Positions 8,705 to 50,761 of a DNA stretch of 64,000 nucleotides are shown here, piece after piece (within the stretch, counting starts at the first letter, position 1; every line of letters starts with the position of its first letter). The translations under genes and the position numbers were made by a program. The DNA lies in contig NC_037253.1 of the NCBI RefSeq assembly GCF_000002425.4, forward strand, positions 4,839,573-4,903,572. The letters run 5' to 3'. The stretch comes from Physcomitrium patens (taxonomy: Eukaryota; Streptophyta; Bryopsida; Funariales; Funariaceae). The notes beneath the pieces are model-generated. The model was not told the DNA's origin, made no database searches, and was given only the letters and a program-made list of their open reading frames with translations.

Positions 8705-9501
8705 TGGAGCTGCAATATGAAGGAGGTGCTGCTCTACGAGTTTCGTGCTACTGCTTGGTGGGCTTGGTGAGGAGAGATGCGCCGGTGACTCCGTGGACGT
8801 GGAACCGAGTTTGTGGCTGTGTCAACAAAGATTTCTGTGGCATGACAAGATTTGCGTTCGACATCTTATGACAACGTCCAGTTTGTGATGCGGGTCAACT
8901 TTGCCTCTTCTGACGACACTGCTGAGGGTCTCGACGTTTCTCCAGAGATCACTCTTGCTGAAAGGGGTTCATGGGAATCTGGCTACATCTAGGAACCGCA
9001 GCAACTCGCCGTCATCGTACCTCCAGTCTTCTACGCAGCATTGCTTATTCCTTGGCGATATTTTTGTAGGTCAATTGCATTGATCTGGATCAAGAACTCT
9101 AACGCTGAGGAGCCGATGCTGAGTGCCGTCCCGTACCCATGCAAGAGCTGAGCACATGTCGAAAATCCCAAGGTGGTATGCGAATGAACACAAGGTGAGT
9201 TCAATGTGGTACACAGTAGACTAGCAGTCCAAATACTGTTAATATCCTTCCAAAGCACTATCAGTGCTGTGCAAGCTTCTCCCTCTCGTTAGAGAAATTT
9301 GGAAACTCCACTGTATTGAAGTCCAAGGCACTCATCATCCCGCACATTAAATGCGGGAGAGGAGATTCAATTTCAGTAAACTTCACTGCAGGCGGTCGCT
9401 GTTCTGGTAACAGATTTGACCGAATTCGAGGATTAGAATACCACGCCCACTGAGGACGCAGGCTTCTAAGCTCTGAATTTCCGATTCATTTCCAAGCAGA
9501 A
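8705..9501 (+). other. Unrecognised host sequence upstream of the fucosyltransferase, copy 1
   Basis: Balanced-composition DNA immediately 5' of the fucosyltransferase start. It contains short plus-strand open stretches, for example 8888-8992 (34 codons beginning MRVNFASSDDTAEG) and a stretch reading EPQQLAVIVPPVFYAALLIPW just after it. These look like once-coding sequence but match no family I recognise and do not form one frame. A GT-like donor follows at about 9193. It may be a 5' untranslated region with an intron or a decayed neighbour gene. The same sequence lies at 41161-41957. Confidence 0.35.
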
Positions 9502-11534
9502 ATGACGAAAGATGGCGCAAAGGGGGTGTCACTCCCCGGAAATGCCATCTTGCTCGGTACTCTGGGCACCGTGGTCATCTTCGTGTGCTTATTCGCGATG
9601 GACGTTGAAACCGTAATTGGCTGGGCGAAATATTCCTCGCAGAAAGCAGTTGCGGACATCTCGAGCATAAGAAACAACCAACCTGAAAAGTCTTCTTCAG
9701 AATCAGCTTCAGTTCGCCGTGACGCACTGGTGAATATAACTCATGACCCCACATGTCTTGCAAGGACACAACATCTTCTCTACCGGAGGGATCCCGAACG
9801 ATTCCAGCCACTGCCAGAGTTCGACAAAGCATGGGATCGCTACGTCGCCATGCACCAGTCATGCACGCAGGGTAAGAATTGGACGCAGGTATTCCTGCAC
9901 GAGCGGAACATGACAGTCGACTGCAACTATATGATTGTCATGGAGGGCAGCGGCGGGTTGGGGAACAAGCTGCTGTCGCTCACTTCTGCATTCGCTTACG
10001 CACTAGCAACAGACCGCATCGTGTTGGTGGAGAGCAGAAAACACTTCAAGGACCTGTTGTGCGACCCATTTCCGGGATCCTCCTGGTACTTGCCAGAAGG
10101 TTTTCCGTATGATAATGTTTGGGGGAACGCAACGAGAATGAACGTGGCAATCTCTAAGAATTTCACCGACGTCGACAATTTTGTTCGTCTCAGCCTCGAC
10201 CACATCCAGGTACCTGTGCTTCAAATCTGACCTGTAACATTCATCTCATTACTGAAGTCTTCAAAATCTTCATCACTAGGCAACGCTACAGTGTCACGTT
10301 TAGGTTAAATTTTTCATAATGGAAACTGAATTGGTGACTTGGTTAATGGTTGTAGACATGGGCTGATGGCCAGTTCTTCTGCGACCACACACACAACGGC
10401 CTCGCGAAGGTGCGGTGGCTGGCATGGACCAGCAACCAGTACTTCATCACGCGTCTTTTGATGATTCCTCGTGTCTGGGAGCGTCTGAACCCCTTGGCTA
10501 AACCCGGGCAGATTTTCACCATTCTCAGTCATAAGCTTCTGCTTCCCAACAACAAGCTTTGGGCGCACGTTGTCCGTCTGTACTTCGCATACCTTGCAGG
10601 ATCTTCTCGACGAGTTGGGGTGCAGGTTCGCCTTCATGGGCGACCCAACCTTGCTGAATTCGACCCCGTTGTATATGACCGAATCCTGGACTGCCTTCAA
10701 ACCAATCGGGTGATTATCCATAGTTCCTACTTTGTCGTGATATGTGTGTTAAATTTTTCGTAATCTCGTCAACCATTGACCGCATAATTGACACCGTCGT
10801 CCTTGTCCGTTTCAGGCACTGCCAAAGCTACGAGAGGAAGAGGACGTATCAGATCTAATGTCGTTTGCCCGCAACGGATACGAGGGTTCAACGGAGATCT
10901 CGGTATTAGTTACGTCCCTGCAGCTTCGTTACTACGACGAAATGAAGGATTTATATGTAAACAGACCAAATGTGAACGGCACCGTGATTCGCTTCCACAT
11001 GGTTTCTCACTTGGTAAGACATAAATAGTGCTTCTCCGGATAGACCGCGTTCAACATGCTGTTTAAAGCTCAAGTCAAGCGTGGCAACTTTTTCGAATAC
11101 GTTCTCTTCATACTTTTTGGTTCTGTATGCAGGATCGTCAGGACGGGTCCATGCACCAATCCGAGACTGCGTTCGTCGAAATGTGGCTGCTGAGTTTCAG
11201 CGACGTGCTTTTAATCAGCCGTTACTCAACATTTGGGTACATCCCTCAGGGGATTGGCGGGATCATCCCGTCTCACCTCAACACACAAACAGTCCCACCG
11301 GGTCAGGAAAATAATGCCTCATCATGCCACCCAGGTATATCTACCCAGCCTTGCACCCATTTCCCCCAGAAACCCAGATGTGATCCTGGCTCCACCGGAA
11401 ACGAATCGCACAGAGAGTGGATGCGGTGCCACGTCCGAGAATGCGTAGATCATGAAGGTGGGCTGCAACTAGTCCAGGAATCAGAGCAACCTAATGAAAG
11501 CGCAAGACTCTGGGGCGACGTTCTACAGAGTTAG
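9502..11534 (+). CDS. GT37 plant alpha-fucosyltransferase (xyloglucan FUT1-like), copy 1, four exons
   Basis: Predicted exons are 9502-10209, 10356-10709, 10816-11013 and 11133-11534, all joined in phase 0 at GT-AG introns of 146, 106 and 119 bp. The product is 553 residues, close to Arabidopsis FUT1. The start lies in a good context (GCAGAAATGA) and is followed by a hydrophobic signal-anchor at residues 15-33, so the protein should be a type II Golgi membrane enzyme. Family landmarks are EGSGGLGNKLLSLTSAF..ALATDR near residues 147-170, GVQVR near 324-328 (the GDP-fucose motif region), and a C-terminal block FSDVLLISRYSTFGYIPQGIGG near 440-462. Eight N-glycosylation sequons suit a lumenal domain. 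Known family members transfer fucose from GDP-fucose to galactose on xyloglucan or arabinogalactan proteins; which acceptor applies here cannot be told. All four exons encode the same protein as the copy at 41958. Confidence 0.92.
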
Positions 11535-12164
11535 GATTCGGCGATCCTCGACCTAAGATCATGGCCAGCTTTTGCCAACCCCAGGTTCTGATCCAATATT
11601 TCGAAGGATCAGTAGCCTCCAATCTAGTTGTTCAGAAACAGCACATGGGTACGCGGCCTACAGTCCGCATCGACATGATACTGCATCCCTTGGTTTCAAA
11701 CCGGAGACGACGTCCATGGAAGTGCCCGGGGATGGTGTTACTGAAATAGGAATTCATGCATTGGTGATGGAGTTGTAGCTTGTGCGATCGGCAAGGTGAA
11801 GGGCATGAGTGATGCACAAATTAAGTTTGGTGTTTTTGATTTTCAACGCCCCTTCTTTATTTCCTCCTATGTCCCCACTACGTAATGCGCTCACCCATTC
11901 CTTCCTTTGCCTCCAAACCCACCTGAAGCTATGCATGCTCCTCTTGCGCTGTGTTTCAGTAGCGTAATCTCCGTCTACTCGGCTCACAAGCCCACGCGAA
12001 GCTGTGCACGATCCGATTGCGCTCAATCTCCCCGAATTGTGAACAATTGTTAATTCCAAAGAAGTGTTGCCATCTTAGAATCGAGTTTATCAGGGTGAAA
12101 ACCAGAAGTTGTCATATGCAAGTTAGTGAAGGACGGTAAATTTTGCCGCTTTGATGTTGATCCC
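11535..12164 (+). other. 3' flank of fucosyltransferase copy 1, inside the duplication
   Basis: Non-coding sequence downstream of the stop codon, still of host-like composition. It probably includes the 3' untranslated region, though I see no decisive poly(A) signal. It is shared with 43991-44621 and ends abruptly at 12164, where the two copies diverge. Confidence 0.5.
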
Positions 12165-12870
12165 TTCTGTATCCGACAAAATGCAGTGAGACCTTAATTT
12201 CCTTTCTCAGTGCCTGCTAGATGGGGACAATGAGGGGGTGGAGTTTACATATGGTACACTGCTAATATGGATTCTAGAAGAGGATATGCTTTTGTGAGAG
12301 AAAGAAGAAAATTAGGGCAAAATTTACGGAAATTGTTAGATGGAGTTATTTGGAATTGTACAGGGTTGGTACTTGTTATAACTCTTGAATAAGTTTTTTG
12401 AAGACCAGAATTCTTTACCGTAACTTTTTTTTTGATTATTTAGGTTATCAAATGCTCATTGAACCATCATTTTTTATTAGCTATATTAGAATTACTGAGA
12501 GGATTTTTGGGTTACAGATTTTTTGTGCTCACAACTGTTCAAAAGAGATTGTTGTAAAATGATGAATATTTTTTTTGTGGTCTCAAATTATTCAATGTTC
12601 TTGTATTATTTATTATATATGATGCATGCTGCATACTTGTACAAATCAATGATTTCTTGGATTGTCTGTGAGTATCTAATACTATGATAGGTTTTTTTTT
12701 TTTGTTTTTTTTGTTTTATTTATTTATTTATTTAAGCATGAATTTTTATGCAAATAATTGTAATTTTTTTGTAATTTTTTTTACTTTGAAAATAAAACAT
12801 TCTATTTTTAATAAAATATTTGTAATTTTTTTGAACAGAGTGCAACATTTTATTGTCAAAATGATATTTT

Positions 12871-12904
<34 letters not shown>

Positions 12905-13490: not shown

Positions 13491-13567
13491 AGCCATGCTT
13501 GGCTTCTGACATTGTTCATCTTCTTCTGGAAGCAATGAGCCACTAGAATGCAGCAAGTTGCCACTTG

Positions 13568-13783: not shown

Positions 13784-13799
13784 AATTTGTAGCAATTAA

Positions 13800-14520: not shown

Positions 14521-14525
14521 TGCCT

Positions 14526-16643
14526 TGTGAGGCCAAATTTCACCACTTGATGAAACTTATGCCACACAATAAGTCCAAGAGGTGGAATTGGAGAGCTCCC
14601 AATTGTGTAATTGTTAGATTAATTTAAATCTTTATATTAAAAATTCAATTATTTTTAGGCCTTCCAAGCAATGGTTACCAACATTAAATTAACATGCTAA
14701 ATAAAATTTACTATGCAAACACAATAAAAATAATTAACTAAATTATTACTATTAATTGACTATAAGAATAAAACTTAAGTTTGAATTAAAAGCTAAGTTA
14801 AAAGTTAAGTTAAAAAAAATTAAGTTAAAAATTAAGATTAAATAGTTAAGTTAAAAGTTAAAATTAAAGGTTAAGTAAAAAGTTAAATTTAAAAGTTAAA
14901 GTTAAAAGTTAAAGTTAAAATTAAAAATTAAAGTGAAAATATTAAAGGTTAAAAGTTAAACTTAAAATTTATTAGCCAAAAAGTGAAATGTGGAGCTTAC
15001 AAGTCACTGGGAAGACGATAGTAAAAATAAAGTGAGAGGTGAAAGCAAAGGTACCTTGACAACACGTAAGGATTGAAGGCAGCGACCTCCTTCTACTCTA
15101 AAATTTGCCAAAATTTTTAATGGGCTTCAATTTGAATGACTCTTATCTTGTTGCAAGGCTGACTTGAAGGTGCTTTTGATCCAACAATCCTCGTTGCAAT
15201 CTAATAATCGGGTCGGGAGAATTCCTCCGTTAAAGTTGAGTGATCCAAACTGCCACGGTGACCAATCTTTTTCACTTAGAAATTCACTAAAAATTCAGAT
15301 TGTCTTCAAATTCACCAAAACTTGTGTCTTTCAGAGCTTAGCTTATAAAGATTGATGCTCCCAAAATTTCAAATAAATCCAATCACCAAGCACTGAGAAA
15401 TGCCTTTCCAAACTCGATTGATTTAAACTGCAAAGGCAGTCAACTCCCTCAAATTCAAAAATTTACCAAAACTTCTTTCTTACTCCAAATCAAGCAAGTC
15501 TTATCTTGTTGGAAAGCTAACAAAAAAAGCTACAACTATTAAAAATCTCACATTGAAACAATAGAAATTGAGTGACTGATTGAAGAAAATCCGAGGCCCT
15601 TGAAACCCTTGGGATATTTGAGATATCTACCTCAATGAAACATATTTTAAAACTTAATGACCATCCTTCACAATGCAAAATCCATACATACACAATCACA
15701 AGGTTCACAATGAGAATTAAAAATCGAAATAAAATTAAGATTAGGGTTTCGGCCAAATTTTGGCATGTCTCTACCCTACATCCAAAAGAGGAGAGAGAGA
15801 GGGCTTGGAAAACCAAGCATTTCTTATACAATTGAGTGGAGGCTTGTAGAAGGGTGGCTACATCTCCATCCTTGATTTTTAAGATCCCTAATCTAGATCT
15901 ACGGCCTTCATTCATCCAAGAGCCAATCTCGTTACCGAGGTTGATGGCTCTTGTAAGTGGTCAAGAAAGCATTTTTTTTGTAAATTTAACTTCACTATTG
16001 TGTTCAAAACACCTTTTTAAGCTAATGTTGACTACTCACATGCCTCAATCCATGCTCAATTATAATTTTCATGGAAGTTTTTACTTACAAGGATCTTGGC
16101 TATTTTTGTGAAATTCTTCAAAATGAGAATTTCATTGCTTCTCTTGTATTTTGAAGGAGAGGTTGCTGATCTTGTTTTCTTCACTCCACGAGGTATATCT
16201 GGTACCACCATTGCATTAAAAAGACTCCCATTAAGTAGAAAAACCACCATGCCACTTAAATTTGTTGATTTTGGAGGAAAATCCAAAATTACCATTGCTA
16301 ACTTCCCTAAATCTTTTAGAGAATTATAATTCCAACTCCTAAATCATGTGAATGATTATAGATGCACTCATAGGCTTTTAGTCAACCCTTATAGTAATGA
16401 CTAACAACCTCAAAATTATTAAACTAACTAAGTTGCTATTCTAATTTTTTAACTCTTATCACTTTAGTCCTAATTAATCTAATTCAAGGAATTAGGCTAT
16501 GATTTATACCATCAAGGGTTGTAATCCTAAAAATTCTATAAAACTAAATTCTACTTATATAAATCCTAATCTAACATGTTTAATTATCATAAAATAGGAA
16601 AATAACAAAAATTTAAATTTTAGAGTATAATTGAGAGCTCACA
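14526..16643. mobile_element. Solo-LTR-like element, 2.1 kb (TGTGAG...CTCACA), copy 1
   Basis: The element starts TGTGAGGCC and ends GAGCTCACA, giving a 6-bp terminal inverted repeat and canonical TG...CA ends. An exact 5-bp duplication TGCCT flanks it (14521-14525 and 16644-16648). The whole length aligns with 18782-20929, including a TTAAAAG-type low-complexity zone at about 14790-14965 and a shared block near 15840-15925. It has no retroviral coding sequence, so a solo LTR or a large non-autonomous LTR element fits best. It is unlike the LTRs of the other elements in the window. Confidence 0.75.
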
Positions 16644-16648
16644 TGCCT

Positions 16649-17109: not shown

Positions 17110-17114
17110 GACTA

Positions 17115-18781: not shown

Positions 18782-20929
18782 TGTGAGCCTAAAATCCACC
18801 ACTCTATGGAATTAGTACTACACAATGAGCTTGAGAAGTAGAATGGAAGAAAACCCAATTGTAAAATTGTTAAGTAAATTTAAATACGGATTTTTATGAT
18901 CAAATAAAATTAGTGTCTTTCAAGCAATGGTTATCAATATTAAATTATAATATTAAATAAAATTCACTATAAAAAAATGATAAAAAAATAATTAATTAAG
19001 TTATTACTATAAACTCACAATAAGAATAAAAACTTAAATTTAAGTTAAAATTAAAAATTTTAAAGTTAAATTTAAAATTTAAAGTTAAAAATTAAATCCA
19101 AAATTTTAACTTAAAAATTAAAGTTAAAAATTAAATTTAAAATTTTAAGTTAAAAATTAAAAGTTAAAATTAAAAATTAAAATTAAAAATTAAAGTAAAA
19201 ATATTAAAGGTTAAAATTTAAAAAGTTAAAAGTTATTAGGTAAAAGTCAAAATGTGGAGATTATGAGTCACTGTGAAGATAAAAGTAAAAATAAAATAAG
19301 AGAGATAAAAGTAAAGGTACCATGACAACGTTCAAGGATTGAAGGTAGCAATCCTCTTCTACTTTAAAATTTGCCAAGAATTGTAACTACCTCTGAATTG
19401 AATGGTTCTTATTTTGTTGCAAGTTTAACTTAAAAGTGATCTTGTTGCAACAAATTTCGTTGCAATATAGTGATTTACTCATGAGAATTGCTCCTTTGAA
19501 GTTGAGTGATTCAAATTGCCTCAGCAATCAATCCCCTTCACTTAGAAATTTTCTAAAAATCCAAATTGTCTTCAAAACTAGAAAAAATTATGTCTTCTAA
19601 AGCTTAGCTTACAAAGCTAAATGCTTTCAAAATTTCAATTGAATCCAATTATAAAGCACTAAGAAATGCCTTCCCAAACTTGATTAATCCAAATTGCAAA
19701 GGCAGTCGACTCCTTCACACTCAAAATTTCACCAAAAATTCAATTCAACTCCAAATTGAGCAAGATTTACCTTTTTAGAAAGCTAAAAAAAAAACTATAA
19801 TCATAAGAAATTTCACATTGAAACTAAAGAAAATTGAATGACTGATTGAGGGAAATCCGAGGCTCTTGAAACCCTTAGAGTACTTGGAAGTCTAAGGGAG
19901 CTATCTACTACAATTAAGTATGTTTTAAAATCCAATGACTATTATTTACAACTAAAAATCCATGCATACCTACCTAAAAAGTTTACAATGAGATTTAAAA
20001 ATCTAAAGAAAATTAAGATTAGGGATTTTGGCCAAATTTTGTCATGGCTTTGCCCTTCACCAAAAGAAAAGAGAGAGAGGGCTTGGAAAACCAAGTCTCT
20101 CTCATAAAATTGAGTGGAGGCTTGTGGAAGGGTTTTTGCATCTCCATCCTTGATTTTTAAGATCTCTAATCTAAATCTACGGCCTTCATTCATCCAAATT
20201 CTAATTTTGTTATCAAAGCTGATGGCTATTGTAAGTGATCAAAAAAGAAATTTTTGATAAATCTAACTTCACCATTGTATTTAAAACACCTTTTTATGCT
20301 AAGATTGACTACTCATATGCCTCTATCTATGTTTATTTGCATTTTTTATGAAAATTTTTAGCTCTAGAGATTTTAGCAATTATTATAAAATCCTTCAAAA
20401 ACAAAAAAAATTCAATGCTCCACTTGTATGTTGGAAGAGAAGGTGCTTATCTTGTTTTCTTCACTCCATAAAGTGATTCCAATGCCACCATTGTATTTGA
20501 AATCCTCCATTAATTGAAAAAACTACTACATACCTTGGATTTGTTGAAGTTGAAGAAAAAACTTCAAAACCATTATTACTAAACTTTACTAAATCTTTTA
20601 GAAAATTCTAATTCTAATTCACTCTAAATCATATGAAATGATTGTAGGTGAATTCATAGGCTCACAATCAACCCTTATAGCAATGACTAACAACCTCTAA
20701 ATTATTAAAAATAACCAAATTACTATTTTAATTTTCTAATCCTTATCATTTTGGTCTTAATTAGCCTAATTCAAGGAATCCGGCTAAGATTTATACCATC
20801 AAATGTTACAACCCTAAAAATTTAATAAAACTAGATTCTACTTATATAAATCCTAATCTACATGCTCAATTATCATAAAATAAGAAAAAATTAAAAAATA
20901 AAATTTTGAATTATAAATAAGAGTTCAGA
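18782..20929. mobile_element. Solo-LTR-like element, 2.1 kb, copy 2, inside copia
   Basis: Starts TGTGAGCCTAAAA and ends AAGAGTTCAGA, aligning end to end with 14526-16643. It sits between the nucleocapsid and protease regions of the copia element. The putative target copies GACAA (18777-18781) and GATGA (20930-20934) match at only three of five positions, so this copy appears older than copy 1 or its flanks have mutated. It carries no retroviral coding sequence. Confidence 0.7.
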
Positions 20930-23979: not shown

Positions 23980-24021
23980 TTATCCCGTCCTTCTAGAGAC
24001 GAGTTCTACGAGGAGCGGTCA

Positions 24022-29807: not shown

Positions 29808-30463
29808 CTCAGTTATATACAATGGTTGGTTCTAGGGTAGATCTTGCACATGCAATGAAAGTTGTAAGCCAAGACATGTCAAAGGTTGGAACAATCTATT
29901 GGGTAACCATTAAAAAGATCATGAAGTACTTAAAGATACTTTATATTTCAAATTATGCCTTAGAGGTGATAACATTACTCTGCATGGTTATTTTGATGTG
30001 AATTAAGTTGAAAGTGCAAGGATAGAAAGTCAACAACAAGATATGTATTTTTTTTTGAAATAGGAGCTATCTCATGGAATTACAAGAAATAACCTCAAAT
30101 TGTTAGATCAACAATAGAGGCCAAGTACATGGCAGTAAGCCATGGTGCAATGGAAGCAATATAGCTAAGACAACTTTTAGAAGACATTGGAGTAATACAA
30201 ATAGAAGCAACTTCAATAGAATGTGGCAATCAAAGATGTCTTGCATTTGCAAAGAATCCAAAGTATCATTTAAAGACGAAATACATTGACATTCAATATT
30301 ACTTTATAAGAGAGAAGATTAAAATGGAAGTGATTGATATGAAGTATTATATAACAAAAGACATGCTTGTTGATTTATTAACAAATGTATTAATAAAAGA
30401 TAGACTTCACATGTTGAAAAAAGCATTATAATTGAAAACCTTTGATCAATAGCAAAGTGAGAG

Positions 30464-30848
30464 TTTTAAAGTAAATAAGTAAATGTGAAAGTAGAATAAA
30501 TTATATTATAAAAGATAATATTTTAAAAAAATTGCTATTAGTTAAAGGATTTGGTTCTTGGTATATAAGAAGGCTAAGAGATAAATTAGATGAACAGAAA
30601 AAAGATCTTAAGGATATAAAAAATATACTAAAGACATATTCTTATAGTAGATAAGATAACAATAGATAGTCTTAGTAGAATATTGGATGGATGTATTTAT
30701 CAAAGGATGGAAGTTGTCCATAAGGACAACAACTACCACTTATAAGTAACGGATGTTGAAAATGAGAGATATCTTACTCCATACTTTCTTTGTGAGCAAC
30801 CTTGCTAATATTATATGTTCATGACTTCAAATTTTGTTTTCTTCAATA
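30464..30848 (+). repeat. copia 3' LTR (385 bp)
   Basis: Direct repeat of 17115-17502, preceded by the CAAAGTGAGAG purine tract and followed by the GACTA target copy at 30849-30853. Confidence 0.8.
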
Positions 30849-30853
30849 GACTA

Positions 30854-31189
30854 ATGATCATCTTCTTCTCCTCAAATAAAAAAATTTCATATATTTTTAC
30901 TGCTTTTGAATATTTAACAAAAATATCTTTTTATGAGTCACGAAATTGACTCACTAATGTGTTTTAATACAAAAAATGTGCTTATAGTATTTGAAGTTAC
31001 TAATTTAGTGAATAAATGTAGAAATTTTGAAATAACAAAAAAATAAAAATAAAATTAAAAATATTAGTTGCATGTATAAATATCTTATAGAATTATCTTT
31101 GAAATAAGATTTTAAATTACATATATTTTCTTCAAATAAGCTAATAAAAATTTATAATTTTTTAATAATAGTCTTATCTCTATTAATAA
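30854..31189. other. AT-rich spacer
   Basis: Sequence right of the copia element. No gene or repeat recognised. Confidence 0.4.
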
Positions 31190-32643
31190 TTACAACAAGA
31201 AGTTCTAATAGTTCTAATAGAATCATATATAATTTATAATTAAAGCTTAACAAATATAATCAAATATTGATCAAATCTAATTGAAATTTTAAATAAATCA
31301 AAAAATAAATACAAAAAAATCCTAAATAAATCTTAATTGAACCTTAATCAAATCCTAGAAAAATCCTCAACAAATATTAATCAATTTTAAAAAAATTCTA
31401 ATCAAATTTTTGAAAAATCTTGAATATATCTTAAATATATCCTAATCAAATCCTAAACAAATCTTTAAAAAAATCTTAATCAAATTTTAAATAAATTCTA
31501 ATCAAATCTTAGAATTTTTTTAAAAAAATCCTAATCAAATTTTAGAAAAATCCTAAACAAATCCTAATCAAACCCTAGATCCTAAACCATATCTAAATCT
31601 TAAACAAATTCTTAACAAATCCTATGGCACATTGAAACCTCCATAACTAATAATCAAATTATTAATTTCAATTCAAATTTTATACATCTTTCAAAAAATA
31701 AGGTGGAATTAAATATAAATATTTTTAAGAAGATCAAACTTATCAAATAAAAGCTAAATTCTAAAATTTGCTTGGATCTTGGCCAACTTCCATTTTCAAT
31801 CTTCTTGCCAATCTCTTTGATCCAAAATCTCTTAATTTCACCATTAAATACCTCTAAAAATTTACACATATGTTGGAAATTAAGTCTACTATCTACACAA
31901 AAATTTCATCTCAATCCAACTAGAAGATTGTTGAAGATCTTAGAAACCTTTGGCGACCTTCAAAACTCTATTTCTAAGATCTAAACCCACTTAAACTTTA
32001 ATAACCTTTAATCTAGTCATTCAATCATGCTTAAATTTATAGCATATAATAATAAAAATTATAATCACAAATTTACAAATTTTCACTTATAGATCTACTA
32101 TCAAACTCACAAAATTCTTTTAAATATAAATCTTTTTTTATTTCATAAATCTAAATTTATTGAAAATAATTCTAATTTTACAAAGCTCTTATAGAGTTAT
32201 TATAAACTCAAATTTCTCAAAACTAATATTTAAAGTAACTTTATAAAATCTTCTCCTAAATTTCATTTTTTTATTTACAAAAGAACCCCAAAGTTTTTGT
32301 ACATGTGCAATTTTGTGCCTTAGGATCTGATTTTGACTTAGATTGATAATTGGTCTTCTTTGGATATTAATTTTTAATAATTTGAGGTAATTTTTGCTTT
32401 ATCTTATTATTAATTTTCTTTTAAACATACCTATATTAATTTCTTATTCTATTTTCTTTGATTTAAATTATTTATATCTCTACAAAATAAATTCAAGTTC
32501 CTTCTATAAAAGGCAACATCAAGACTTAATTTTTTACTACCTTTCTATAATTTATCATTATTTTTTTTACTACATCTTTTTATTAGGCTCTTTAATAATA
32601 AAATCTATATTTTTATATTTCACCATATAATCATGTTATTACA
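31190..32643 (-). repeat. TGTAATA-ended repeat, copy A (with degenerate minisatellite)
   Basis: In reverse complement it begins TGTAATAACATGA and matches 62234-63794 over most of its length, for example around the block at 32330-32370 that ends in CAATTATC-type sequence. The 31300-31620 part is a degenerate tandem array of a roughly 20-bp unit (variants of AATCCTAATCAAATC), matching the array at about 63290-63700 in reverse complement. No coding sequence. Boundaries are approximate. A solo LTR of an unidentified element is possible. Confidence 0.6.
31300..31620. repeat. Degenerate ~20-bp minisatellite (AATCCTAATCAAAT-type)
   Basis: Many imperfect copies of a unit built from AATCCTAA, CAAATCC and TAAACAAAT. 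It forms the end part of repeat copy A. Confidence 0.7.
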
Positions 32644-35600
32644 TAATACCATTGTTATATTGTGATTTGACTACCATGTCAAAATAATGCACATATATAT
32701 TTAATATATAATTTACTATACAATGTAGTAAGAGCCATGTTATTAGATTTTAGTTGATTACAAAATATGGTTAGATTACTACTTTAAAGTAGTTAGTTTA
32801 AAAGGATTATTATTGTAATTGATTTTATATTAACAATAGTTTTTATATATTTAGTGACACCTTTATTAGACATTGGTGATTCTTAAAATTTTGTTTTATT
32901 TTTTTATTTGGTGTTTAAGTCACATACTATATAAAACTTATTAGAAAAAAGATTAAAACAAAATTTTTATATAAAAAATGATAGTTAGGCCAATCATATG
33001 AATGAATGGAGATGGATGATGAAAATTTCCATTAGTATTGGCCAAAAGTTATGTCCAATGAGCTTTAAGGAGGCTACTCAAGGCCTTACTAGGAATTAGA
33101 GTTATTTTCTAATGTCATTTGAGAATCAAAGATTAGGGTTGTCAAGTTTAGGATTTTAGATATGATTTTGGTAAATTTTTTGTATGATTTGGAATTTTTA
33201 TGAAAGAGATATAGGTGCTCAAATTCAAGGTGTTGATTCTATTTATGATGTCACTCTTTGTGGCATAGTGCATGCATATGAAGGGCTTTTGAGGATCAAA
33301 TTTTATGGTTGAAAAATTGATTTAAAGGACTACATTTTGCATATAGAAAAAAAATTGAATTTGATTTAAAGGAATAAAAATTGCTTAAAGATAGCACTTC
33401 TAAATTAAGATTTGTAAGTAAATCAATTCAATGAGGGATTTTAATCTAGCCATATCTTGGATATTTGAAAGAAAATTTGGCTAAATATTTTTATAAATAT
33501 GTATTATTATGTTATAAAGCTACATACCAAATTTTATGGTATTTGAATTTTGGATTTTTGAGATATGAAGAAAATAGTACTATAGTGCTTGTGAATTAAA
33601 ATTTAGAGTATTTGCTAGGATTTCTAAGATGTTAAACAAATTGTAGTAAATTTATTGTTCATTATTTTTATGATAAAGATTAAAGATAAATGATATATTA
33701 TCTAGAATTTTTTTAAAAAATTAATATTTTAATCAAGAGATATAAAATTCTAAAGTTTAGAGAAAAAAATTCTTTGTGAGAAAAAAAAATATGTTGAAAG
33801 AGTTTTGTTACAATTTGAATATTTTATACAAAATAAAGGGATTTTTAGGAGCCAAGAATTTATATATATGCTAAAAATAGAGATATAGAGCTATGATAAA
33901 ATTATGATATAAAGATAGATTTTTGATAGGAGATTATGGATTTTTTTTGGAATTATTAAAAATCTAACTTATTACCAAATGATTAATTATGATTTTGTAT
34001 AGCAAAGGATGTTAAAGAATTTCTAGATGCTGTAAAAATCCTTATGTATAAATCTTATTAAATATAAAAGATTTTACTAGTAGAAAATCTTTTAATAATA
34101 TTACATTTATTTATCATTTATAATAAAAATATATCACTTATTAGAACTTGGCCAATAAGTTAAACCTAACTCTTTATAGCTAGATACCTACTATATTTTC
34201 AATTTATAAATCATACCACAAGGCACCATATTCCTAATCTTTTTTTATTTATTTATTTATTTTTTTTGGGATTTATTCCGGAGGCTCCAATTCTCACAGA
34301 GTATTGTTTTTCTTTATTTCTTTTTTCTATAGATTTCTATTTGTATATGGTGGCTATTTTTATTCTTGCTTCATATAGTTGAGGTGCATCAAGGTTTGGC
34401 ATTTGACAATCGAGGTGATGGCACTAGAAATTCTATTTTTGTGGTGTGGAGTTGGTAGTAGTTGATACAGTCTAATTTTTCCTTGTATTGTTCATTCCAT
34501 TGAGATGCTACAAAACAATACTTGTTTTGTTTTGTGATCAACATAGATGCGAGTGGTTCAAGCTAAGTATTCTTTTTTATTGGAGTTTTACGATGGTGTA
34601 GTAATGTCTTTGTTGTTTTTTTCCTCATGTCAATTGGCTATTATGTTTGGATGGTAGATTGGACTTTCATAGTGGTACTGCAATGCAGCTAGTATGTAGT
34701 GGCATCAAGCTAGTCAAAAGTCTTGTCATTAGTGTGCAGGCTCCTATTGCAAGTTGACTCAAGGCCTTGTGGTTAATCAAATCTATCAACTAGTATTTTC
34801 ATTTGTAATTTGATTGGTGATTAATTCTTAAAATTTAACGTAAAAGAAGCTCATCAAGTATAGAATCAGTACATAGAGATTGAATAAAAAAAAAGTGATG
34901 AAATCTAAATTGCTAAAGATGGAATAATAGAACAATTAGTATAGAACACATGAAGGAAGTGAATTTTTCAATTAAGTGTTGACATTTCTCTAGAGATAGC
35001 TTTAGCAATTAACATATTTTCAAGATATTAATTTTTTTGTTTTTGTTTTTTTTCTTTTTTTAGAAAATCAAGAATTTTAGAACTTTTATAGATAACATAG
35101 AATTACTAGGTAGATGTGTAATGTTGAGAGTTAGGAGATCAACTTGTGATGATTATAGAAGTTGTTAAATCTGCAACATCTATAATTCTTGTAATACATA
35201 AGAGATATAAGAAGCTTATTTAGAAGTCGAGTGCCTACATAGGTGACTCACACAAGTGGTTAATTAGAGCACAGAAGTTGATGTGCAAAAGGTAATTGCA
35301 TTGGAAGTTGAAGAAGCCACCCTACAAAAAGTTTATGGATGTTGGCTAAAGCTTGATGATCTTCAAAATCAAAAGAGGCTACTAAAGAATTGAAGAAGAG
35401 TAATTAGTAGTACCAACATTCAACTCTGCCTCTTGACCTCCAAACAAAGTTGAAGGCAACTTCATTATCATTAACAACTCTCATATTTGCAAAATGATCA
35501 GCTTCTAGACAATTAAGTTTAGAGGTAGGAAGTTAAGATTTAACAAAAAATATTATTTAGATAAAAATATTAATTAAAGTTAGAATTTCTTTATAAATGA

Positions 35601-36099
35601 AGTATTATAGACAATAATTTATATTTTGATGATTTTTATTAATGGTTAAAAATTAATATAAAAATAAAATAAATAAAATAAATAAAATAAATAAAATAAA
35701 CAAACATAAACTTAATAAATTTTTAAAATTTTTAAAAATTAATACATGTATTTTATAAAATAATTATTATTATAAGTATGAATTAATAGAATTTATTATT
35801 AGAAGTTGAATTTAATTATTTAAATATTAAAAAAGATTAAAAAGTGATTTAATTAAAATTTAAATAAGAGTTAGAATTTTTGGAATTGTCATAGTTAATT
35901 CACTTATTGTGAACTAGAATAAACTTTCAATTAGCAGAGGTTTATTTTAGCTCACTCCTTTCTTATCTTTGCATCAAACTTTTGTCATTTTTTCTTTGAT
36001 ATATAATACCAAGTAGAAAAAACCAAAAAGATGAATATTTTGAAGAAAAGTTTTTTTACCATAAATAACTCTATATAGTATCTTACTACCAAGTCTTGC
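32644..36099. other. AT-rich decayed repeat sequence, no gene
   Basis: No convincing coding sequence on either strand. The part at about 33380-33660 resembles the reverse complement of about 61130-61480 (for example the phrase ATATCTCAAAAATCCAA). An AAATAAAAT-type array lies at 35661-35701. The stretch at about 35880-35950 matches the right end of the element at 48683-50512. Probably several old LTR fragments. Confidence 0.45.
35661..35701. repeat. (AAATAAAAT)n low-complexity array
   Basis: About four to five units of a nine-base A/T unit. Confidence 0.85.
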
Positions 36100-36779
36100 A
36101 AGTAGAAGGCAATTCCAAGTCTAAGTCACAAATTTTGCTACAAACATCTAATATTAATGATCCAACTTGGTATTATTTAGAAATGTTTGTACTCCTTCAA
36201 AAATAGCCATATGATATGTCTTGCCATATCAACAATTTCATATGTATATGTTGAAGTGATCATATGCCAAATATCTTTAGCTTTGAATTAAAAACTAAAC
36301 TTATTATTTAAGAATTTAGTACCTTAATCAATAAAAAAAAAATTATCTTTCTTCAAGTTCTTCTTTGTGCCTTTTCTTTCCAAGTCTTATAAGCAACATA
36401 TTGCTATTTGTTTGAGGACATTCTTCATCACCTTATCAATATCCTTTTTGTCCACTAGTCCTAGAAGTACTTCTATACTTATCAATCTTAGGCTTTTCAT
36501 TTTATTATAGTTAGTATTTTTTTAATACTTACTTTTTTTACATGCATTGCTAAAGTAAAAAATAGATAATTAATTTTCTCCTTTCTTTGCATCTTGTCCT
36601 CAAAGAAAATAGATTGACCAACTTCTTTTGTGATCTCTTTTTTTTTTATTTTAATACAATCGACTAAACAAGTAGATTTTAAGATTTTGGTAATGTAGTA
36701 AGTATAAAAAATGCCATACTTTGTTTGTCCATTTCACCATTAACTTTAATATATTGATATCTAAGATCAAAAATCTATT

Positions 36780-36811
<32 letters not shown>

Positions 36812-38250
36812 GTTATAAATTCTCCATCTACATATCAAAGATTATGCAATTCCTTCATTAAAAATATCTCAATAATAATTCTTGAGGACTTATGGATCTT
36901 AGCCAATAAATTCTAAATTTCTTTTGCAATATTGCATTTGTGTATATGAGTTAATTACAAAGGCTTAACATTAACTACAATCAATGCTTGTATTTTTGCT
37001 TTGCTTGATTTCCATTTTAATTTTTCATCAATACCTATAAGACATTTTAATGTCCTGTCTACATGCATGTAGAGTTTACAAATGTGTATCAAGTATTTTA
37101 TAATGAATATCCATGTGCCATAGTTTTTTTCATCTAATCGATCAATGTAATGATCTATTAAAGAAGATGTCATTGCCAAATAAAATTAATGAAATAACAA
37201 CAATTAACTATAAAGGAACAATTAAGAAATAGTCTACAAAATACAATATTTTAGAAGTAGTAGTACAAAGCTATATTAGAGCAAAAAAACTTGTTTCATT
37301 GCCAATAGCAAATAGAATTTAATTAAATAAAAATTAACATCAATAGAATTAAACTCTAGCTCCAACTCCAATAGCTCCAACAATTCTAGAAAAACTCTAG
37401 CAACTTCTTGATTTTGGTAGTATTTCAATAGCAATGGAGCTCCAATAGTAAGTAGATCATCTATATAAATTTTCATCTAAATTTTTATCTACAAAAAACA
37501 TCCAATTTTTTCATCTAAATTTTGTCCAATGAATTTTAACTATGGCATTGTCTATCCAGCTCTGATATCATGTTACGAAAACATGATGTATTATGAAAAT
37601 AAAATGGACATCATTTATTGAAAACAAAATGTGCTCAAAGCCAAGAGAAAGATACTTCTCATATCTTAGTTAAGAATTGGATAAGTCATAGCTTTTAGTA
37701 CATAAAATATGAGACATTCAACATTAATGTGATACTAAGATAGTGTTTGTATTAATTTAAGTTGAATATATAAATAATAGGCCAAATTTGTAGATGTTTT
37801 TTAATGTCTTTAGAAGTACATGAAAAGTTGAAGAGCTCCCATACTTGTATTTTGAATAAGCTTGATGAAACCAAATTTTGTTTTGGTTTGAAGATGATAT
37901 TAGTTAATCATATCCATCCATGTATAGAAATTTTACTATCTTTTCTTTTTTGCCAATCACTTGCTATTCCAAGTCCGCTTAGGGTGAATGTAAAATGGAG
38001 ATTTTGAATAACTAGTTTGTATGTCTAGCATACAATACAAGAGTATCTAAGACTTTCAAGGCTATTTATTTGGTTTCTTGAATGTTGATGGGATTTTCTT
38101 ATATTGCAAGACTATTCATAGATTATTCTGTTGCTATTAAAATAATGTATATATAGAGCAAAGTCATTGGTTGTCAATTGGATTTAGTCCTCCGTGATTG
38201 CGAACAAATCTTTTGATGATAGAATGTGGCCTTGTGTTCAAGTTTTAAGA
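36100..38250 (-). mobile_element. Ty1/copia fossil, 5' portion with LTR, primer site and gag
   Basis: Minus-strand order: an LTR whose inner end is TGTTACGAAAACATG in plus-strand reading (from 37571), a primer site at about 37556-37570 whose complement is TGATATCAGAGCTGG (initiator-Met type), then gag at 36955-37179 (MAMTSSLIDHYIDRLDEKNYGTW, KWKSSKAKIQALI), a typical plant copia gag start. Further left the similarity fades and no reverse transcriptase is visible. The outer LTR edge is not defined, so 38250 is a guess. A run of 27 T lies at 36785-36811. Many breaks; old. Confidence 0.7.
36785..36811. repeat. Poly(T) tract, 27 bases
   Basis: An uninterrupted T run inside the copia-derived region. 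No LINE or SINE sequence is recognisable beside it, so it is listed only as a homopolymer. Confidence 0.9.
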
Positions 38251-38842
38251 AGAAGAGGCTCAAGCAAGTAATACTATACTATTCAACCTGAATTTCTACT
38301 TCTTCTAGTATAAATGGTATCAACAATATAATGGATGAAGAGATTTTTTTAATTTTGGATACTAATATATATAATTGGATTGTAGATGATTTTTTAAGGT
38401 AGTTCCTTTGAATTCTCAATCCAACAATCTTCCCAATTTAGAATCAAACTAAGAATAGGATTCTATAGAATATATTGTCAAATTTAGGGAATTGAATCCA
38501 TAAAGAGATTTTGATTCCTATTGACATTTGCAGATGAAAATGAGGTTGCAAATAGAGGAGGTGAGTACTAAAGTATAGAGGGCTTTGGATTAGAGCCTCT
38601 TTTGCACTGATTTTAAAAACAAATGTCAACACAAAACACCCATGTTGGAGCATTTTGATCCATAATGCTACTATGATTAATTCAATAAGATTGATATTGA
38701 TCCAATCTTGAAGTTTGGATCGTGACAGATGTTTTGTTGGAGCAAAACCAATAAGCGGTAATAGTGACATAGCTTGGGCATCTTTCTTTTGTCTCAACAT
38801 GGATCCTGGTCCCCTTCCTTCTCTCCCTTTCCCAACGCAGGT

Positions 38843-39013
38843 TGCTTGGATGAGTTCCTTGTGAAAGTCACTGTCGTCCTCAACAAGCTCACTGGCTGCC
38901 TTGCCCTTCCACTTCTGCAAAGGCTCGCTGATTCTTGGCTCTGCGTAGAAGCCCATGGCAGTAAACTTGGTAGCGAAGTCGATGCCTTCTACATTCACAA
39001 CTTGGGGACCCAT
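38843..39013 (-). pseudogene. Chalcone-isomerase-fold (CHI/CHIL-like) exon, isolated
   Basis: The minus strand encodes 57 residues, [21 protein letters not shown]... through [10 protein letters not shown] and [14 protein letters not shown]. These match the central exon of chalcone isomerase and CHI-like proteins, where known members read KFTAIGVYL...WKGK...EL.ED..FF. The acidic VEDD and the run up to LIQA resemble the non-catalytic CHI-like enhancer type more than true isomerases; this is an inference. Base composition is host-like. The expected C-terminal exon is not found to the left, and the N-terminal exon would lie to the right, toward the assembly gap at 39423. It could be a relic exon or part of a gene broken by the gap. 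The opposite strand is also open here but matches nothing. Confidence 0.6.
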
Positions 39014-39422
39014 CTCGACGCTCGCACTTCACGAATGATCTTCAACAATCAACTCCTCTCTTGGTTCAAAAACTGGGAATAGTTGTGTTTGTCGTGGAAT
39101 TTAATTCCCTGGTTCCGATCCCCACTTTGATTTGGAGTCCTCAGTCCTGAATAGAGAGTGCATTCAATCTTTGTGTCAAGATCTCCACATGCATAAGCCA
39201 GGACCTGAAATATGACCCGTGCAGCATTCAAACAGCTTTTTGATGAAGAATTAGAAGCGTGTGGTGAAGTTTCTCTGGGAATCCGCATGTATGCTCACAT
39301 ACGGTACTGATTGGCATATTGTTGAGAGATTTGGCAGTAGCAGATCGAGATAGAGGATTTGAAAAATTGACAAACCTGTGGTGCTCCGTGTTTGGGCTAA
39401 CATCGCACAATTGATAGTGTGC
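39014..39422. other. Host-like sequence left of the assembly gap
   Basis: Balanced-composition DNA with no recognisable product on either strand. It may hold intron or exon sequence of the CHI-like gene. Confidence 0.35.
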
Positions 39423-39522
39423 NNNNNNNNNNNNNNNNNNNNNNNNNNNNNNNNNNNNNNNNNNNNNNNNNNNNNNNNNNNNNNNNNNNNNNNNNNNNNN
39501 NNNNNNNNNNNNNNNNNNNNNN
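39423..39522. other. Assembly gap, exactly 100 N
   Basis: A run of exactly 100 N, the usual placeholder for a gap of unknown size. Sequence order and distance across it should not be trusted. Confidence 0.99.
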
Positions 39523-41160
39523 CTTGAGCTAAATGAGCAGATGGGGCTCTTGATCCAAGAAACAAAATTCCTCTGATCTCTCCCGGACAACTTCAACTCA
39601 ATTGCCATAACGTGAGGTTGGCTTCATGGGACACACGCAGGACTGCACGACTACCCCATGGCATGCTCAAGTAAAATTTAGTTGACAAAATATGTACTAG
39701 ATTCTTGAGGAAGGTACGCCTTGAAATTGGTCACTGGCTGAGTAATAGACCTACGGAATTCATGTTCTGAGCATGGTCATTCTTTTGGATCTGTCGGTAT
39801 TCGCCTCGGAATGTGCAACCTTGGAAAAACCAGCTAGTGACGTACATGTGAGAGAACATGCGCAGTCATGTTTGCCCCAACTCTTCTTTGTCGTCAACAC
39901 TGGATAGATGCCGATCTTGCCGATTATTTTGCCAGAGATAGCGCCAGGCAGCAGATATGAAGTATGGGGAATAGACCGTCGTGCTGAATGATGTAGTTGT
40001 GAATTTCATAAAGCTTTCGTGAATTGATGTTGACAATAATCTCGGACTCTTGCTGGTTCAGTTGTTTCAGACACGCTGCTTCCAGTACTGTACCTTTTGT
40101 TATGACGTGAGGAGGAATGGAATTGAGAGGGAGGAGGGGACCCGTCCCTCCCTCCACAAAAGAGAGGGGGCTGGGACGCGCGCAGGGTAAAAGGGAGAGA
40201 AGGAATAGGACCGAGACCCACGCAAGGACAAAGGAAAAGGGATTTGAATGAGTGTGTTTAGACATAATGGGGGTGCATAAAGCAACTTGGGGTGTGCTCG
40301 TAACCTGAACCAAGAGAAATATCTCCACCAGTGCATGTGCTTGTAATACTCTTCTGTCTATTACTGATAATAGAGAAATATCTCCAGTGCATGTGCTTGT
40401 ATTACTCTACTGTCTATTACTGATAATTGAGCTATATTGGAAAGAAAACAAGGACAAAAAGCAATAAACAAAGTTATATAAACTGAGTATTCAAAATTAG
40501 GGCTACAGAATACTTCACAAACTTGCATGCTTCCAACGTTCTTTGTCTCCCCGGATGCGCAATCGTCGTCCTAAGCGTGTTCTAGCAATCCGAGCGTCTT
40601 CTGTTCATCAATCTAAACAGCAAAATCATCATCAAGGGTCCCATGCGGGACCTCGACGGCGGGCCAGAGTTCCTGGCCGCGCCCGTATTATGCGGATTAC
40701 CATCCCCTCAGAACCATGTGTATCCACAATATTAAATGGTAATCTGATTCGATCTATTTATATGCAATAACTAAAAATTTATAACTAATCTCCCTCGCAG
40801 AGATTAGGTAAATATAACCTCGGCGGGAGCTAAAATTTGTAATACTTACTATTGGCTGGTTGCATCTTTAGTCTTCACTGTCAACCACAAAGGTAACCAA
40901 CTAGGATTCTCTTCACATGCCTCATATTTCAATCCAAGTATTGAAACAATGTTGAGATGACTAATTAAAAACGTAAAATCGGGAAACTTCGCTCATTCAC
41001 AACCGAAGGTGGAGTCAAATTTGGCGAAAACAAAACAATTTGTGCAGACGGCGCAATTCATCCCTCTACGCTGTACAGTCGCCTCTTCTCCTGGATCAAT
41101 CGTGCGCCATGCTCACATTGACGCTGTACCGACAAACCTGGCCCGAGATGGTGAAGGTGC
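39523..41160. other. Host-like island between the gap and fucosyltransferase copy 2, no gene recognised
   Basis: Mostly balanced composition. Several open stretches exist on the minus strand at about 39924-40336 and on the plus strand at about 40543-40770 and 41040-41160, but none matches a family I know. A purine-rich tract lies near 40120-40210 and a tandem duplication at 40314-40428. A plus-strand frame runs from 41040 into the duplicated segment and stops at 41327. Confidence 0.35.
40314..40428. repeat. Tandem duplication of a 56-59 bp unit
   Basis: The unit starts GAGAAATATCTCCA and ends CTATTACTGATAAT. It occurs at 40314-40372 and 40373-40428; the second copy lacks three bases (CAC-type difference after CTCCA) and differs at a few sites. 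Confidence 0.85.
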
Positions 41161-41957
41161 TGGAGCTGCAATATGAAGGAGGTGCTGCTCTACGAGTTTC
41201 GTACTACTGCTTGGTGGGCTTGGTGAGGAGAGATGCGCCGGTGACTCCGTGGACGTGGAACCGAGTTTGTGGCTGTGTCAACAAAGATTTCTGTGGCATG
41301 ACAAGATTTGCGTTCGACATCTTATGACAACGTCCAGTTTGTGATGCGGGTCAACTTTGCCTCTTCTGACGACACTGCTGAGGGTCTCGACGTTTCTCCA
41401 GAGATCACTCTTGCTGAAAGGGGTTCATGGGAATCTGGCTACATCTAGGAACCGCAGCAACTCGCCGTCATCGTACCTCCAGTCTTCTACGCAGCATTGC
41501 TTATTCCTTGGCGATATTTTTGTAGGTCAATTGCATTGATCTGGATCAAGAACTCTAACGCTGAGGAGCCGATGCTGAGTGCCGTCCCGTACCCATGCAA
41601 GAGCTGAGCACATGTCGAAAATCCCAAGGTGGTATGCGAATGAACACAAGGTGAGTTCAATGTGGTACACAGTAGACTAGCAGTCCAAATACTGTTAATA
41701 TCCTTCCAAAGCACTATCAGTGCTGTGCAAGCTTCTCCCTCTCGTTAGAGAAATTTGGAAACTCCACTGTATTGAAGTCCAAGGCACTCATCATCCCGCA
41801 CATTAAATGCGGGAGAGGAGATTCAATTTCAGTAAACTTCACTGCAGGCGGTCGCTGTTCTGGTAACAGATTTGACCGAATTCGAGGATTAGAATACCAC
41901 GCCCACTGAGGACGCAGGCTTCTAAGCTCTGAATTTCCGATTCATTTCCAAGCAGAA
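41161..41957 (+). other. Unrecognised host sequence upstream of the fucosyltransferase, copy 2
   Basis: Same sequence as 8705-9501 with one substitution. Here a plus-strand frame enters from the left and continues to 41327 with the text MVKVLELQYEGGAALRVSYYCLVG through VTPWTWNRV, ending TRFAFDIL. It looks coding in composition but I do not recognise it. The frame is different left of the breakpoint in copy 1, so at most one of the two loci keeps the original context. Confidence 0.35.
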
Positions 41958-43990
41958 ATGACGAAAGATGGCGCAAAGGGGGTGTCACTCCCCGGAAATG
42001 CCATCTTGCTCGGTACTCTGGGCACCGTGGTCATCTTCGTGTGCTTATTCGCGATGGACGTTGAAACCGTAATTGGCTGGGCGAAATATTCCTCGCAGAA
42101 AGCAGTTGCGGACATCTCGAGCATAAGAAACAACCAACCTGAAAAGTCTTCTTCAGAATCAGCTTCAGTTCGCCGTGACGCACTGGTGAATATAACTCAT
42201 GACCCCACATGTCTTGCAAGGACACAACATCTTCTCTACCGGAGGGATCCCGAACGATTCCAGCCACTGCCAGAGTTCGACAAAGCATGGGATCGCTACG
42301 TCGCCATGCACCAGTCATGCACGCAGGGTAAGAATTGGACGCAGGTATTCCTGCACGAGCGGAACATGACAGTCGACTGCAACTATATGATTGTCATGGA
42401 GGGCAGCGGCGGGTTGGGGAACAAGCTGCTGTCGCTCACTTCTGCATTCGCTTACGCACTAGCAACAGACCGCATCGTGTTGGTGGAGAGCAGAAAACAC
42501 TTCAAGGACCTGTTGTGCGACCCATTTCCGGGATCCTCCTGGTACTTGCCAGAAGGTTTTCCGTATGATAATGTTTGGGGGAACGCAACGAGAATGAACG
42601 TGGCAATCTCTAAGAATTTCACCGACGTCGACAATTTTGTTCGTCTCAGCCTCGACCACATCCAGGTACCTGTGCTTCAAATCTGACCTGTAACATTCAT
42701 CTCATTACTGAAGTCTTCAAAATCTTCATCACTAGGCAACGCTACAGTGTCACGTTTAGGTTAAATTTTTCATAATGGAAACTGAATTGGTGACTTGGTT
42801 AATGGTTATAGACATGGGCTGATGGCCAGTTCTTCTGCGACCACACACACAACGGCCTCGCGAAGGTGCGGTGGCTGGCATGGACCAGCAACCAGTACTT
42901 CATCACGCGTCTTTTGATGATTCCTCGTGTCTGGGAGCGTCTGAACCCCTTGGCTAAACCCGGGCAGATTTTCACCATTCTCAGTCATAAGCTTCTGCTT
43001 CCCAACAACAAGCTTTGGGCGCACGTTGTCCGTCTGTACTTCGCATACCTTGCAGGATCTTCTCGACGAGTTGGGGTGCAGGTTCGCCTTCATGGGCGAC
43101 CCAACCTTGCTGAATTCGACCCCGTTGTATATGACCGAATCCTGGACTGCCTTCAAACCAATCGGGTGATTATCCATAGTTCCTACTTTGTCGTGATATG
43201 TGTGTTAAATTTTTCGTAATCTCGTCAACCATTGACCGCATAATTGACACCGTCGTCCTTGTCCGTTTCAGGCACTGCCAAAGCTACGAGAGGAAGAGGA
43301 CGTATCAGATCTAATGTCGTTTGCCCGCAACGGATACGAGGGTTCAACGGAGATCTCGGTATTAGTTACGTCCCTGCAGCTTCGTTACTACGACGAAATG
43401 AAGGATTTATATGTAAACAGACCAAATGTGAACGGCACCGTGATTCGCTTCCACATGGTTTCTCACTTGGTAAGACATAAATAGTGCTTCTCCGGATAGA
43501 CCGCGTTCAACATGCTGTTTAAAGCTCAAGTCAAGCGTGGCAACTTTTTCGAATACGTTCTCTTCATACTTTTTGGTTCTGTATGCAGGATCGTCAGGAC
43601 GGGTCCATGCACCAATCCGAGACTGCGTTCGTCGAAATGTGGCTGCTGAGTTTCAGCGACGTGCTTTTAATCAGCCGTTACTCAACATTTGGGTACATCC
43701 CTCAGGGGATTGGCGGGATCATCCCGTCTCACCTCAACACACAAACAGTCCCACCGGGTCAGGAAAATAATGCCTCATCATGCCACCCAGGTATATCTAC
43801 CCAGCCTTGCACCCATTTCCCCCAGAAACCCAGATGTGATCCTGGCTCCACCGGAAACGAATCGCACAGAGAGTGGATGCGGTGCCACGTCCGAGAATGC
43901 GTAGATCATGAAGGTGGGCTGCAACTAGTCCAGGAATCAGAGCAACCTAATGAAAGCGCAAGACTCTGGGGCGACGTTCTACAGAGTTAG
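41958..43990 (+). CDS. GT37 plant alpha-fucosyltransferase (xyloglucan FUT1-like), copy 2, four exons
   Basis: Predicted exons are 41958-42665, 42812-43165, 43272-43469 and 43589-43990, joined in phase 0 by GT-AG introns of 146, 106 and 119 bp. The 553-residue product is identical to that of the gene at 9502-11534: signal-anchor at residues 15-33, SGGLGNKLLSL motif in the N-terminal half of the lumenal domain, GVQVR near 324-328, and the STFGYIPQGIGG block in the last exon. The single base difference inside the gene is in intron 1 just before the acceptor (A42808) and leaves the AG intact. It should be a Golgi GDP-fucose-dependent glycosyltransferase of cell-wall polymer synthesis. Whether this is a real second gene or the same locus assembled twice is discussed in the findings. 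Confidence 0.92.
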
Positions 43991-44621
43991 GATTCGGCGA
44001 TCCTCGACCTAAGATCATGGCCAGCTTTTGCCAACCCCAGGTTCTGATCCAATATTTCGAAGGATCAGTAGCCTCCAATCTAGTTGTTCAGAAACAGCAC
44101 ATGGGTACGCGGCCTACAGTCCGCATCGACATGATACTGCATCCCTTGGTTTCAAACCGGAGACGACGTCCATGGAAGTGCCCGGGGATGGTGTTACTGA
44201 AATAGGAATTCATGCATTGGTGATGGAGTTGTAGCTTGTGCGATCGGCAAGGTGAAGGGCATGAGTGATGCACAAATTAAGTTTGGTGTTTTTGATTTTC
44301 AACGCCCCTTCTTTATTTCCTCCTATGTCCCCACTACGTAATGCGCTCACCCATTCCTTCCTTTGCCTCCAAACCCACCTGAAGCTATGCATGCTCCTCT
44401 TGCGCTGTGTTTCAGTAGCGTAATCTCCGTCTACTCGGCTCACAAGCCCACGCGAAGCTGTGCACGATCCGATTGCGCTCAATCTCCCCGAATTGTGAAC
44501 AATTGTTAATTCCAAAGAAGTGTTGCCATCTTAGAATCGAGTTTATCAGGGTGAAAACCAGAAGTTGTCATATGCAAGTTAGTGAAGGACGGTTAAATTT
44601 TGCCGCTTTGATGTTGATCCC
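43991..44621 (+). other. 3' flank of fucosyltransferase copy 2
   Basis: Non-coding sequence equal to 11535-12164 except for one extra T near 44593. Probably includes the 3' untranslated region. Confidence 0.5.
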
Positions 44622-50760: not shown

Positions 50761-50761
50761 G

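Follow-up and report, generated by a model that had tools for sequence, protein, structure and literature searches.

Two copies of a GT37 gene

We analysed a window of 64,000 nucleotides from Physcomitrium patens (contig NC_037253.1), in which self-BLAST returned a direct pair, 8687-12172 versus 41143-44629, with 99.7% identity. Base-by-base alignment placed within it a near-identical core of about 3.46 kb (8704-12164 vs. 41160-44621; offset 32,456 bp) with exactly three differences: a substitution at 8747 (G) versus 41203 (A), a second at 10352 (G) versus 42808 (A), which lies in intron 1 four bases 5′ of exon 2, and an additional T at 44593 in copy 2, after position 12136 of copy 1. A 3.46-kb match with three differences is not chance. 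Under our splice model the gene in each copy has four exons, its three introns all bounded by GT..AG, and encodes 553 amino acids; the coding sequence is identical between copies, and each copy includes 798 bp upstream of the gene and about 630 bp past the stop codon. The original prediction of a near-perfect duplication of whole four-exon genes with about three differences and identical predicted proteins, in direct orientation 32 kb apart, is therefore borne out. The segments and exons are as follows.

8704..12164, + strand: copy 1 segment with the complete GT37 gene and its upstream and downstream DNA; probable parental locus (base-by-base alignment, genome search)
9502..10209, + strand: copy 1 exon 1, with the start ATG and an N-terminal membrane helix recognised by eye (splice model, PF03254 match)
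10356..10709, + strand: copy 1 exon 2, carrying the VQVR motif (splice model, PF03254 match, structure-chain alignment)
10816..11013, + strand: copy 1 exon 3 (splice model; no separate PF03254 match, but within the 82-500 match of the spliced protein)
11133..11534, + strand: copy 1 exon 4 and stop codon (splice model, PF03254 match)
41160..44621, + strand: copy 2 segment; probable daughter copy (alignment, genome search; the one polarised substitution is derived here)
41958..42665, + strand: copy 2 exon 1 (coding sequence identical to copy 1 at the 32,456-bp offset)
42812..43165, + strand: copy 2 exon 2 (splice model)
43272..43469, + strand: copy 2 exon 3 (splice model)
43589..43990, + strand: copy 2 exon 4 and stop codon (splice model)

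The spliced protein matched the Pfam family XG_FTase (PF03254) over residues 82-500 (253.9 bits, cut-off 23.4; 3.5e-75) and, judged by its sequence, the predicted protein is a clear GT37 member. It aligned over 81-534 to the structure chain 5KOE, with GVQVR opposite GIQVR, STFGYIPQG opposite STFGYVAQG, and the C-terminal cysteines aligned. Its matches in the structure database were FUT1 chains (5KOE, 5KOP, and 5KWK) and a “probable fucosyltransferase 4” (9NQH), all of which we take to be from Arabidopsis. The VQVR-type arginine motif binds GDP-fucose, and the cysteines are conserved in GT37. With this motif and the C-terminal cysteines intact, the two copies appear functional.

The family search of the genome gave 26 profile matches, grouped into 13 GT37 loci, each copy being represented among the matches by three of its four exons. 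No close relative of the pair was present among the 13 loci: the nearest, at 23.95 Mb on contig C1, has 35% identity, and the tree joins the pair to this gene with support of 92/88, below the starred level. When the GT37 segment itself was searched against the genome, three candidates came up and were all scored, namely both copies plus a 115-bp piece on contig C10. No third full copy was found among these best candidates, and a genome-wide search found no third copy of the 798-bp upstream DNA.

By self-BLAST of the window, the long pair ranking next in similarity (24238-29809 vs. 56337-50760, inverted, 97.2% over 5.6 kb) is about 30 times more diverged than the GT37 gene pair, in agreement with the claim that all other repeats of the window are far more diverged. 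Its frames carry reverse transcriptase and integrase domains and identify it as an LTR retrotransposon. The two retrotransposon copies, in opposite directions, span 23424-29809 and 50760-56337, and the first copy’s own two LTRs are only 95.1% identical. Between the two gene copies lies a direct repeat of about 2.1 kb with 77% identity (14526-16641 and 18782-20927).

Edges, flanks, and neighbouring gene fragments

Similarity is lost sharply at both ends of the core, and the flanks of the two copies are unrelated to each other on both sides. Outside the core, self-BLAST and base-by-base alignment found no flank homology beyond 17 bp. The features at the left edges, and those to the left of copy 2, are listed here.

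8687..8703, + strand: left shoulder of copy 1, agreeing with the copy 2 shoulder at 12 of 17 bases, followed by no similarity (self-BLAST, alignment)
38845..39101, − strand: chalcone-isomerase-like gene fragment (94-97% to two pieces of C4:17221758-17222192; profile 24.4 bits, below the 27-bit cut-off)
39122..40108, − strand: fragment homologous to C15:7659700-7660860 (87-90%), with the gap inside (strand from the frames of the C15 gene)
39423..39522, no strand: assembly gap of 100 N, the sole gap, 1.64 kb left of copy 2 (bridged by the homologous C15 stretch)
41143..41159, + strand: left shoulder of copy 2 (self-BLAST, alignment)

At the left edge, the short imperfect match exceeds what chance would give (P about 0.0014 ungapped, 0.003 gapped). 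At the right edge five of eight bases match before similarity stops, which is not significant (P = 0.10 and 0.13, respectively). Self-BLAST showed no other repeat pair of the window overlapping the core edges and no long repeat at them. A 5-bp TTCTG repeat flanks copy 1 (P about 0.19) and no flanking repeat of four or more bases was found at copy 2; a target-site duplication was rejected on these grounds.

In the 2 kb to the left of copy 1, the best 40 of 823 candidates fell mostly on a single short high-copy element (7877-7964), with one weak match besides, so that further repeats may be hidden there. No match was listed for the 830 bp to the left of copy 2 (23 of 23 candidates scored), and the first 170 bp to its right gave only one weak match (70%) among the best 40 of 281 candidates. 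The expectation of host-like flanks on both sides holds only in part, given that both right flanks become AT-rich within 100 bp and that the left side of copy 2 holds fragments of other genes.

The assembly gap had gone unmentioned in the original prediction. Its two sides, 39122-39382 and 39523-40108, match C15:7659700-7659948 (87%) and C15:7660269-7660860 (90%). Order and direction are kept, and hence the two sides belong together; by the spacing on C15, roughly 280 bases are missing in the gap. The C15 gene looks by eye like a cyclic-nucleotide-gated ion channel, for which Pfam gave only a weak IQ motif. The chalcone-isomerase-like fragment lacks the 172 bp that separate its two pieces on C4, and the pieces overlap by a few bases where they meet. 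Because the pieces abut, a spliced cDNA copy was considered; it was rejected since the missing 172 bp include apparent exon parts as well as intron, which indicates a deletion and not splicing. The chalcone-isomerase family search listed only the genes on C4 and C26 and not the window fragment. Neither fragment is more than about 2.3 kb from copy 2. The left end of the interval 36900-39422 holds a repeat that dominates its matches (best 40 of 203 candidates).

Near-identical pairs elsewhere in the genome

The pair had been treated as unusual, a view that does not seem to hold against the rest of the genome, in which similar near-identical local pairs recur. In the light-harvesting family, with all 85 matches used, 36 belong to groups of equal score within 120 kb of one contig, forming 24 pairs; some of these matches are exons of the same gene pair, so that 36 overstates the number of genes. 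The groups lie on C2, C3, C4, C5, C12, C14, C16, C20, C23, C26, and C27, often on opposite strands. One light-harvesting protein encoded on C27 agrees with chains of 6L35 and 7XQP at 174 of 174 residues, and 7KSQ/7KUX and 8HTU score almost as high; these are photosystem I structures of P. patens, in keeping with the species. Among the 104 P450 matches, inspection by eye singled out three local pairs (6 matches) whose scores were equal or nearly so; the grouping was computed on 8 of the 104, and the near-identical local pattern is there a minority. A counter-example comes from GT37 itself, where a local pair of genes on C6 is only 68% alike.

Equal scores alone are no proof of identity, and we therefore compared the sequences of three pairs. 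The P450 pair on C27 is direct and 37 kb apart, with two differences in the first 2,132 aligned bases; the light-harvesting pair on C27 is inverted and 6.6 kb apart, with two differences in a core of about 960 bases; and the light-harvesting pair on C20 is inverted and 24.5 kb apart, with seven differences over at least 3,375 bases (99.8%). The edges, seen for two of the three pairs, are sharp apart from short shoulders. Having been chosen for their agreeing scores, the three pairs show that this kind exists and not how frequent it is. Measured against them, the GT37 duplication seems ordinary in kind for P. patens.

Origin of the pair and comparison with known systems

The original prediction had left a recent duplication, gene conversion, and double assembly of one locus open. 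A recent duplication is the best supported of these and double assembly is disfavoured; judging from the sequence, the pair probably represents a recent dispersed duplication, nearby and not adjacent, of one whole GT37 gene. In such an event a second site, 32 kb off along the chromosome, would have received a direct-orientation copy of about 3.46 kb of genomic DNA, introns included. The copying would be DNA-templated, by break repair or by replication with template switching, and the short imperfect match at the left edge would help the template switch. Several other origins were rejected. All three introns are present in both copies, which excludes a retrocopy. The core edges lie outside the window’s other repeat pairs, so that an LTR-mediated origin or unequal crossing-over is unlikely. 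An adjacent tandem array does not fit copies that are 32 kb apart and have no long edge repeats, and an old duplicate with visible flank homology does not fit flanks in which none extends beyond the 17-bp shoulder. The failure to find a third copy argues against a transposon family.

The gap close to copy 2 raises the question of whether one locus was assembled twice or a chimeric scaffold was built, and the assembly may indeed hold some redundancy, as a P450 match on the chromosome-sized contig C22 (C22:12951706) is repeated at equal score on contig C38 (C38:20992). We nevertheless consider such an artefact very unlikely because all four edges lie in unbroken sequence with differing flanks, three sites distinguish the copies, and the two halves of one C15-homologous stretch stand in correct order on either side of the gap. 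Nor would a haploid, selfing moss be expected to yield redundant haplotype contigs. The gene fragments beside the gap bear on a further alternative, that copy 2 was carried by a gene-capturing transposon, such as a Helitron, together with the C4-like and C15-like pieces. Such elements typically carry mosaics of gene fragments, and pieces of two other genes do lie close to copy 2. Their identities, however, differ from each other and from that of the GT37 pair (94-97%, 87-90%, and 99.9%), so that they probably did not arrive together, and the DNA next to copy 2 is almost free of matches on both sides among the candidates scored. This makes transposon capture very unlikely.

Gene conversion calls for closer weighing. 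An older duplication could have been kept identical in its interior by conversion, with the outermost bases, beyond the reach of conversion, drifting into the diverged shoulders. The significant left shoulder could mean such older shared ancestry, and concerted evolution of tandem genes in P. patens has been proposed, according to a passage of PMC3045890 that cites Lang et al. (2008). Five edges were tested (two of GT37, two of the C27 light-harvesting pair, and one of the P450 pair), the null for all five being random places of the window. A diverged shoulder at P < 0.01 appeared in three of the five; two of these are among the three control edges (P about 0.008), and one of those two is a simple AT repeat and is to be discounted. 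The remaining control edge has no shoulder, the right shoulder of the GT37 pair is not significant, and template switching could use the same short imperfect match. Moreover, with no similarity left beyond 17 bp, conversion would need a tract whose limits fall on the two ends of the old duplication. We regard conversion of an older duplicate as unlikely; the diverged rims themselves fit it and imperfect microhomology alike and do not separate the two.

A broader form of the same idea is that P. patens keeps dispersed local duplicates identical by frequent conversion over their whole length, and that a rim of 15-20 diverged edge bases is the sole trace of their age. The GT37 pair, with its left rim, and the C27 light-harvesting pair, with a left rim at P about 0.008, would then be examples. 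This generalisation is doubtful; if it were true, rims could separate old converted pairs from truly young ones genome-wide.

Returning to a recent duplication, substitution rates of 7e-9 to 1e-8 per site and year were used for dating. Two substitutions in about 3,460 bp then give about 29,000 to 41,000 years (Poisson limits roughly 3,500 to 150,000), and on this clock the duplication would be tens of thousands of years old; if gene conversion is acting, this age dates the last conversion and not the duplication. The LTR pair 23424-23979 and 29252-29807 gives about 2.7 million years at 9.4e-9.

As to direction, copy 1 (at 8.7 kb) is likely the parent and copy 2 (at 41 kb) the daughter. The stray piece on C10 (C10:17068766-17068880), around which no other pieces of the GT37 gene were found in 6 kb, comprises the end of intron 1 and the start of exon 2 (87% over 116 aligned bases). 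It has G at the position of 10352, like copy 1, so that the A at 42808 in copy 2 is derived. Only this one of the two substitutions can be polarised; the other likewise has G in copy 1 against A in copy 2, with nothing to polarise it. A derived base in copy 2 does not alone make copy 2 the daughter. We also counted for this status the neighbourhood of copy 2, where the C4-like and C15-like fragments point to a site that took in copied DNA before. The TTCTG repeat, should it be real, would point the other way and make copy 1, not copy 2, the insert.

The locus offers a clean, apparently intact, and very young whole-gene duplicate in a model plant in which gene targeting is easy, so that removing one or both copies could test how dose acts and what becomes of a fresh duplicate. 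Because the coding sequences at the two loci are identical, knock-out or expression studies must handle both. Whether the recurrent near-identical local pairs of P. patens are young or are kept identical by conversion is likewise a testable question.

Literature searches without a locus identifier gave no paper that treats the GT37 pair itself. Tandemly arrayed genes of P. patens are noted as highly similar, perhaps through gene conversion, in a passage of PMC3045890 (2011, citing Lang et al. 2008), and tandem and near-identical genes in this species are mentioned in part of PMC3729371. The GT37 pair resembles such known tandem or nearby pairs in being local, on the same chromosome, and near-identical with introns included. 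It differs in that its copies are 32 kb apart with retrotransposons between them, and are thus nearby and not adjacent.

Both copies are predicted to encode one and the same fucosyltransferase, which by its family would be a type II enzyme of the Golgi. With the same protein from both, the immediate effect would be a doubled dose and not a new function. Of the proposed second cell-wall fucosyltransferase, the membership in GT37 stands clearly and the cell-wall role less so: “cell-wall fucosyltransferase” is a fair guess, from sequence, for the predicted enzyme. Passages in PMC8211770 and PMC3342304 report that the xyloglucan of moss is without fucose and describe a clade of GT37 proteins from moss and Selaginella that is apart from those of later plants, for which D-chain fucosylation is suggested in the former (PMC8211770). 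Bryophyte arabinogalactan proteins carry no fucose or only traces of it, according to part of PMC12209756, where GT37 members are suggested to act mainly on other polysaccharides. The moss protein shares the GT37 family with Arabidopsis FUT1 and FUT4: it has the PF03254 domain, and its VQVR motif and C-terminal cysteines align with their counterparts in 5KOE. It differs from AtFUT1 in that xyloglucan fucosylation is not expected of it: with fucosylated xyloglucan reported absent in moss in those passages, fucosylation of the L side chain of xyloglucan, the function of AtFUT1, is unlikely for the moss enzyme.
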